This document shows, one piece after another, positions 25,183 to 25,945 of a stretch of 37,829 nucleotides of DNA. Under the pieces are notes generated by a model. That model saw nothing but the letters and a program-made list of their open reading frames with translations. It did not search any database and had not been told where the DNA came from. Position 1 is the stretch's first letter. Each line of letters opens with the position of its first letter. The DNA comes from Flavobacteriales bacterium UBA6772 (GTDB lineage Bacteria; Bacteroidota; Bacteroidia; Flavobacteriales; UBA7430), in the NCBI GenBank assembly GCA_905182215.1, contig CAJJAI010000052.1, positions 1 to 37,829 of the forward strand. The letters run 5' to 3'. Both the position numbers and the translations under genes were made by a program.

Positions 25183-25199
25183 AACACCAATTTCACATA

Positions 25200-25232
25200 A
25201 AAAAAGGCAAGCTCAATGAGCTTGCCTTTTTT
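25200..25232. terminator. Bidirectional terminator between waaA and the tRNA-like gene
   Basis: A perfect 9-bp stem (GGCAAGCTC at 25206-25214 with GAGCTTGCC at 25218-25226) has an AAT loop. It is flanked by six A and six T residues. It ends waaA on the plus strand and lies four bases past the tRNA-like 3' end on the minus strand. Confidence 0.9.
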
Positions 25233-25236
25233 GTTG

Positions 25237-25344
25237 CTGTAGGAGAAGGAGTCGAACCTTCACGGAGTGGTTAGTCCAGGGATTTGTGCCAAAATCTCCA
25301 CCCTCGAGACAGGAGGGCATGTCTGCCAGTTTCATCACCCCACA
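25237..25344 (-). tRNA. tRNA-like gene with anticodon GUC and an expanded variable arm
   Basis: The 108-nt minus-strand RNA (numbered from 25344) folds as a cloverleaf. Acceptor 1-7 pairs with 101-107 (five Watson-Crick, two G-U). U8, a 3-bp D stem (10-12/24-26) and a Leu-like D-loop with A14, G18 and G19 follow. The anticodon stem CCCTC/GAGGG (28-32/40-44) is perfect, with loop CTGTCTC, giving anticodon GUC with U next to it. The T arm GAAGG/CCTTC has the loop TTCGACT. The base at 73 is G, and CCA is not encoded. The variable region is about 39 nt (45-83), far above the usual maximum near 23. It can fold as GGAG/CTCC enclosing two small hairpins (ATTT/AAAT and TGG/CCA), or as two tandem hairpins. 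Its charging and decoding role is unclear. It could be a specialised tRNA, a tRNA-derived regulator or a decaying gene, although all stems are intact. Confidence 0.75.
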
Positions 25345-25445
25345 ATGTTTGTTGCGATTAACTATAGTAAATATAGATAAACCATTCTTTAATTGCGAAT
25401 AAAACAAACTATCAATGTAATTATTATCTTTTTAATAATTTAAAC

Positions 25446-25483: not shown

Positions 25484-25945
25484 ATGGACGATTATTATCA
25501 AATAGACAAAATAGACCGCAGTATTTTATCTGTTTTAATGGAAGATGCGAAGACTCCTTACACCGAAATAGCAAAAAAAATGCTTGTTTCAGCAGGAACC
25601 ATTCATGTACGCATGAAAAAAATGGAAGAAGCTGGACTTATAAAAAAAAGTCGCCTAGACATCAACTATGAATTATTAGGCTACGACTTAACAGCATTTT
25701 TAGGGATTTATCTAGAAAAAGGATCCAACTATAAAGAAGTGATTAAACAAATGGAGGCAATTCCAGAGATTATTGAAGCACATTATACCACTGGAGTCTA
25801 CAGTATATTTGCAAAAATAACCTGTAAAAACACCAAACACATGCGCCATGTACTAAACGAGGATATTCAATCGGTAACTGGAATACAACGTACAGAAACG
25901 ATTATTTCTCTGGAACAGAGTATTGACAAACAACTCAAACTATAA
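25484..25945 (+). CDS. Lrp/AsnC family transcriptional regulator
   Basis: The 153-residue protein has the two-part Lrp layout. An N-terminal helix-turn-helix (about 8-55: DRSILSVLMEDAKTPYTEIAKKM, then GTIHVRMKKMEEAGLI) is followed by an alpha/beta ligand-binding domain (about 65-150) with the FLGIYLEKG strand and the TTGVYSIFAKITCKN motif. Such proteins form octamers and respond to amino acids or similar small molecules. The effector and targets are unknown. It is a lone gene and ends one base short of the convergent comEC stop. Confidence 0.93.
   Translation: MDDYYQIDKIDRSILSVLMEDAKTPYTEIAKKMLVSAGTIHVRMKKMEEAGLIKKSRLDINYELLGYDLTAFLGIYLEKGSNYKEVIKQMEAIPEIIEAHYTTGVYSIFAKITCKNTKHMRHVLNEDIQSVTGIQRTETIISLEQSIDKQLKL

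Follow-up and report, generated by a model that had tools for sequence, protein, structure and literature searches.

Staphylococci possess a dedicated non-decoding tRNA, the cell-wall tRNA-Gly, which donates glycine to peptidoglycan. Unlike the RNA described below, it has an ordinary short variable loop, and the two sequences are unrelated. In Thermus, Deinococcus and Bdellovibrio, asparagine is made on a tRNA with a U1-A72 pair, which is charged with aspartate that is then amidated by GatCAB (PMC4206432). Work on Bdellovibrio reports that bacterial GatCAB recognises U1-A72 and that asparagine comes from AspRS plus GatCAB in genomes which encode AsnRS and GlnRS as well, the pathway being used where asparagine synthetase is missing (PMC4206432). 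These bacteria use the ordinary, decoding tRNA-Asn as the substrate and depend on a non-discriminating AspRS (PMC4206432). Other unusual, class II-like bacterial tRNAs came from special searches: the allo-tRNAs, which have GUC among their common anticodons, and the selC* tRNA-Cys. Their acceptor branch measures 12 bp (8/4 or 9/3), and they carry serine or alanine, or cysteine (PMC7609411). According to a 2023 review (PMC9976931), the main Asp determinants are G73, G34, U35, C36 and C38, the U1-A72 pair confers amidation of Asp-tRNA-Asn by the amidotransferase, and G1-C72 together with U20a are antideterminants in tRNA-Asp.

The window analysed here is a stretch of 37,829 nucleotides from Flavobacteriales bacterium UBA6772 (contig CAJJAI010000052.1). 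Its reverse strand carries a tRNA-like RNA gene of 108 nt, U1 to G73 (25237..25344), which scored 118.9 bits with covariance model R2 (see below). The gene is of class II, and the original prediction of a tRNA-like gene of this length with a GUC anticodon, G73 and a 39-nt variable region was borne out, with exact coordinates. The acceptor stem, on the reverse strand like all parts of the RNA, pairs UGUGGGG (25338..25344) with UCCUACA, which is followed by the discriminator G73 (25237..25244); U1, G2 and U3 on one side and A70, C71, A72 and G73 on the other are invariant in the family. C74 is encoded (25236..25236), whereas the following CA is absent, both here and in the ordinary Bacteroidota tRNAs inspected. 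U8 and G9 are present, and the Leu-like D arm (25319..25335) has a 3-bp stem, the D-loop AAACUGGCAGA and a GGCA with C20 and A20a but no U20a. The anticodon arm CCCUC-CUGUCUC-GAGGG (25301..25317) presents G34 U35 C36 (25308..25310) followed by U37 and C38, and the T arm reads GAAGG-UUCGACU-CCUUC (25245..25261). Between these two arms lies the variable region (25262..25300), in which covariation supports a helix H1, a bulge, a helix H2, an internal loop and an apical hairpin. H1 is the predicted GGAG/CUCC closing stem and the short inner helix H2 is UGG/CCA; the two separate hairpins that had been proposed on or beside this stem gave way to one stacked arm.

Alignment of relatives pointed to a probable Bacteroidota-type promoter, TTCGCAATT ... 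TATATTTAC (25367..25399, reverse strand), the promoter-like boxes of most relatives being TTG(T/C)AATT ... TATATTTAC. Downstream, a hairpin followed by U's was recognised by eye (25199..25234, reverse strand) and was missed by a simple terminator scan. A terminator had been foreseen at this place as dedicated to the RNA, but it is common to the RNA and the convergent kdtA gene. Terminators in the same place in relatives differ in sequence from that of the window, and the copies of its own family each have promoter-like boxes and terminators of differing sequence. On the other side, 139 nt from the 5′ end of the RNA, begins a divergent AsnC-type regulator gene (25484..25945, forward strand).

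The RNA resembles bacterial tRNA-Leu in its D-loop (AA...GGCAGA), its 3-bp D stem and its class II arm, but differs from it in having G73 instead of A73, U1-A72, a GUC loop and a variable region that measures 37-131 nt in most family members. With bacterial tRNA-Asp it shares G73, G2-C71, C74 and the anticodon loop except for position 37, whereas it has a class II body, U1-A72 instead of G1-C72 and no U20a. In contrast to the allo-tRNAs and selC*, it is a 7/5, Leu-bodied molecule with the apparent identity elements for aspartate and GatCAB and a far longer variable arm.

ARAGORN called no tRNA at the locus, and Rfam gave neither a family match at the gathering threshold nor a hit to tRNA with E<=10; the RNA family is missed by the ARAGORN and Rfam models used here. 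The minimum-free-energy fold of the window copy alone was no better than that of shuffled sequences (z 0.14) and is uninformative. The evidence for the structure comes from conservation and covariation. BLASTN found the RNA in 15 of 60 relatives, belonging to the window's own family and to a second Flavobacteriales family, with two tandem copies in genus g2. In an alignment of 12 sequences, 99.4% of the cells pair, and there were 16 double changes compared with 3.7 in shuffles. The covariance model R1, built from 12 sequences, detected longer members, of about 168 nt at most, in further orders of Bacteroidia and separated family members (at least 68 bits) from ordinary tRNA-Leu (at most 65 bits), the runner-up among the genomic matches of the RNA covariance models. 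R1 overlooked long copies, such as that of genome G479, and model R2 was therefore built.

The family ranges in length from about 107 to 210 nt. A pattern scan matched 77 IMG/VR contigs and, in named genomes, at least 120 stretches, and the genera and groups among the matches listed include Pedobacter, Mucilaginibacter, Chitinophaga, Hymenobacter, Algoriphagus, Dyadobacter and Saprospiraceae. The family spreads over Flavobacteriales, Cytophagales, Chitinophagales, Sphingobacteriales and Saprospiraceae. In four stretches (L049, L065, L068 and L157) the RNA stands two or three times in tandem, and the variable regions of some of these copies differ. In an alignment of 76 sequences, covariation extends across the whole tRNA body and three helices of the variable region: 23 of 35 pairs show changes on both sides, a number that none of 500 shuffles reached, and the both-side changes amount to 362 cells compared with 89 in shuffles. 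The cloverleaf has a covarying 7-bp acceptor stem and 5-bp T stem, and its T arm and 3′ end are like those of host tRNAs. The spread over several orders and the strong covariation refuted the suggestion that the gene is a recently diverged copy. No earlier description of the RNA was found in the open-licence literature, so that this RNA family of Bacteroidota and their phages is apparently undescribed so far.

Covariation in the variable-region helices of relatives, the check that had been proposed for them, was confirmed. Throughout the family the region is built as one stacked arm, in which H1, an asymmetric bulge and H2 are followed by a conserved internal loop (AUAAA/CUAA) and the apical hairpin; long forms contain the hairpin motif GGGUUGACCAC. 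This large covarying domain may be a docking site for the AspRS-GatCAB pair or a sensor of asparagine. Three other interpretations of the region were discarded. A pairing of the anticodon-loop GUCUC with a GAGA of the variable region does not hold across members, the covariation being that of H1; a mini-ORF (AUG-GGU-UGA) within long variable regions is absent from many members; and the likeness of AUAAA...GCUAAC to the SAM-II riboswitch or the 11-nt tetraloop receptor is a short match with another topology.

Position statistics were derived from 66 copies obtained by whole-genome searches, chosen to avoid a bias from the loop pattern. U1, G2, U3, A70, C71, A72, G73, U35, C36 and C38 occur in all 66, so that the pairs U1-A72, G2-C71 and U3-A70 never vary. 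C20 and A20a are likewise invariant, without U20a, and 64 copies have G34. Ordinary tRNAs have a purine at position 37; here a pyrimidine takes its place in 64/66 copies, which extends to the family the earlier observation of a U on the 3′ side of the window's anticodon. Ten copies lack U33. Of 187 distinct host copies selected by the loop pattern, 185 start with UGU and 186 end with ACAG; C74 comes next in their commonest 3′ flanks, as it does in the ordinary Bacteroidota tRNAs inspected. An 8-bp acceptor stem with a -1:73 pair was not supported, position -1 being A in 34 of these 187 copies. Eight copies, several of them from Hymenobacter, have C34 (loop CUCUCUC; L063, L094, L101, L123, L150, L151, L156 and L193).

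Invariant U1-A72, G73, U35, C36 and C38, set against the pyrimidine at position 37 and the sometimes missing U33, show that the features for charging are fixed in the family and those for decoding are eroded. The ordinary tRNA-Asp of the hosts has G1-C72 with U20a, whereas the RNA has U1-A72 with C20 and A20a. LeuRS requires A73 and AsnRS requires U36; the RNA should therefore be rejected by both enzymes. Three features count against an AspRS identity: the conserved G1-C72 of tRNA-Asp is replaced, the Asp determinant G10 is missing from most copies (A in 43, including the window's, U in 12 and G in 11 of the 66), and C34 stands in the copies mentioned above. Taken as a whole, the sequence reads as that of a substrate of AspRS and then of GatCAB. 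The idea of a Ser- or Leu-charged species that reads an Asp codon found no support, given G73 instead of A73, the conserved AspRS set G34, U35, C36 and C38, and the loss of decoding features.

The genomic distribution of GatCAB provided a second line of evidence. All 38 genomes with the RNA have gatB, compared with 23 of 41 genomes without it (Fisher p 9e-7), in counts that exclude the window's own incomplete genome (62%) and consider kinship only via comparison within families. To our knowledge, GatCAB has no other duty in Bacteroidia that have both GlnRS and AsnRS. The sharpest test is the set of such genomes, where GatCAB would otherwise be redundant, and there gatB was present in 17/17 genomes with the RNA and in 0/12 without it (p 2e-8). 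Families f17 and f18 include both states, and in them the RNA and gatB vary together. Genome G479 had gatB and no RNA according to R1; R2 then found a copy of 195 nt. In f19, which has the RNA and GatB, and in three genomes of which GlnRS and AsnRS were confirmed, tRNA-Asn carries G1-C72 and thus is without the GatCAB pair found in the RNA. The tRNA-Asn of most hosts keeps U1-A72, and GatCAB could act on it there if AspRS is non-discriminating. A lone gatB-like match lies within a 1120-aa open frame (G371:C29:384759-386135) in a family otherwise without gatB.

E. coli-type AsnB was found only in genomes without the RNA (0 of 28 with it), and AsnA is rare among those that have it (G546, G462, G639 and G542). 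AsnB-like proteins of 570-690 aa exceed the NCBIfam cut-off in many RNA-bearing genomes outside f1 and f9; in f1, f9 and a few others, no protein is above either asparagine-synthetase cut-off. The presence of AsnA or AsnB-like proteins in some of these genomes means that the RNA is not the sole source of asparagine everywhere. The best RNA match in G462 is only 76 nt long, with the loop CTATCTC (L305:5339-5414), and this genome and G546, both of family f23, have AsnA. It is as if the RNA changed or decayed where AsnA is present.

The divergent gene of the window encodes an AsnC-type protein (NCBIfam AsnC 1.6e-52 versus Lrp 9e-13; 9.6e-39 against the E. coli AsnC structure 2cg4), and AsnC was also the best match for five neighbours sampled from other loci. 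Of 120 loci, 80 have a divergently oriented AsnC-type gene next to the RNA; the same holds for 79 of the 110 that have at least 600 nt of upstream sequence. In E. coli, asnA is under AsnC control. No AsnC gene next to asnA or asnB was found in the genomes checked, in a search that included a positive control. In f9 (L011-L014), the RNA follows an ammonium-transporter gene and is not beside asnC, and asnS lies about 12 kb away.

Phages carry the RNA in two settings. On large phage contigs it lies within near-complete tRNA arrays, several of which have an ordinary tRNA-Asp and some a tmRNA; the jumbo-phage stretches L205, L217, L226, L270 and L272 contain 22-26 tRNA genes, among which most amino acids are represented, with a tmRNA in addition in L205 and L217. 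On smaller phage contigs no other tRNA accompanies the RNA within the stretch, and a start codon often follows it at a distance of 12-23 nt (L204, L211, L225, L249, L254 and L257). On one phage contig (L237:6435-9377), the RNA is near a GlnII glutamine synthetase and a class II (D/K/N) synthetase core of 275 aa that has no obvious anticodon domain, a gene company that fits asparagine supply without proving it. Distant BLASTN searches of the INPHARED phages gave no match to the RNA. Phage copies often have palindromes (TGCATGCA, GCCGGC or GTGCAC) adjoining the GGGUUGACCAC hairpin, and these might permit dimerisation of the RNA.

Taking identity elements and gene content together, we propose, with a probability of roughly 0.7, that this non-decoding tRNA is reserved for making asparagine: AspRS would load it with aspartate, which GatCAB would then amidate on the tRNA. 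It would be transcribed from its own putative promoter beside the AsnC-type gene, probably under AsnC control, and the conserved C74 suggests processing and CCA addition like those of an ordinary tRNA. The set G34, U35, C36, C38 and G73 would direct charging with aspartate by the host's ordinary AspRS, and U1-A72 would direct conversion to asparagine by GatCAB, in keeping with the co-occurrence of the two genes. The bulk of the variable arm, the pyrimidine at position 37 and, in some copies, the absence of U33 would block the reading of Asp codons, and the asparagine would presumably be released for AsnRS and metabolism. Given a separate tRNA with a GUC loop, an ordinary discriminating AspRS would suffice, in contrast to the route of Thermus, Deinococcus and Bdellovibrio. 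A non-decoding role was among the suggestions of the original prediction and is retained; the signalling or cell-wall chemistry attached to it is not, since the evidence favours transamidation of aspartate to asparagine.

The identity and GatCAB evidence would also agree with an RNA that is aspartylated and amidated in the same manner and from which a ligase hands the asparagine to another acceptor, such as a lipid, a peptide or the cell surface; where AsnA or AsnB-like proteins accompany the RNA, free asparagine might not be the aim. We regard this as unlikely, because AsnC is the only widely shared neighbour and no transferase gene is conserved beside the RNA, E. coli-type AsnB is absent from the RNA-bearing genomes, and phages that carry the RNA alone have no obvious ligase nearby. 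The adjacent AsnC gene, together with the strongly conserved and possibly ligand-binding AUAAA/CUAA loop and the GGGUUGACCAC hairpin, would suit a regulatory RNA whose charging state or variable-region core reports the Asp/Asn status, for example to AsnC. Sensing alone predicts neither the tight link with gatB nor the invariant U1-A72, and the phage loci examined have no asnC near the RNA, which makes this role very improbable.

A specialised elongator that inserts aspartate, or asparagine, at some GAC/GAU codons would account for the intact cloverleaf, T arm and C74, the GUC anticodon and the retention of the RNA inside the tRNA arrays of jumbo phages. We give it hardly any weight, in view of the near-absence of a purine at position 37, the copies that have lost U33 and variable arms of up to about 130 nt. 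Moreover, a normal tRNA-Asp is present in several phage arrays and in the hosts, where the check advised at the outset found it in 13 of 15 genomes, the two without a match being incomplete genomes of the window's own genus. That the RNA was overlooked by tRNA finders and has an ordinary fold energy might recall a decaying pseudo-tRNA or a chance copy, the outcome against which the original prediction had warned. This is next to impossible: the RNA recurs in relatives with covarying stems and is conserved across orders with its own promoters and terminators, and the 76-sequence covariation refutes decay.

If the asparagine-synthesis reading is true, it would explain why many Bacteroidota that already have GlnRS and AsnRS retain GatCAB. 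It would also account for asparagine production with an ordinary AspRS in bacteria that have no obvious asparagine synthetase. We lean slightly towards regarding the family as a so far unreported class of biosynthetic tRNA, an amino-acid carrier that retains its identity for aminoacylation and amidation but has shed decoding, sits under an asparagine-type regulator and has been acquired by phages as a metabolic accessory. A tRNA serving the making of an amino acid instead of decoding would then be widespread in well-studied genera, and the phages that carry it would possess an auxiliary metabolic gene consisting of RNA alone.
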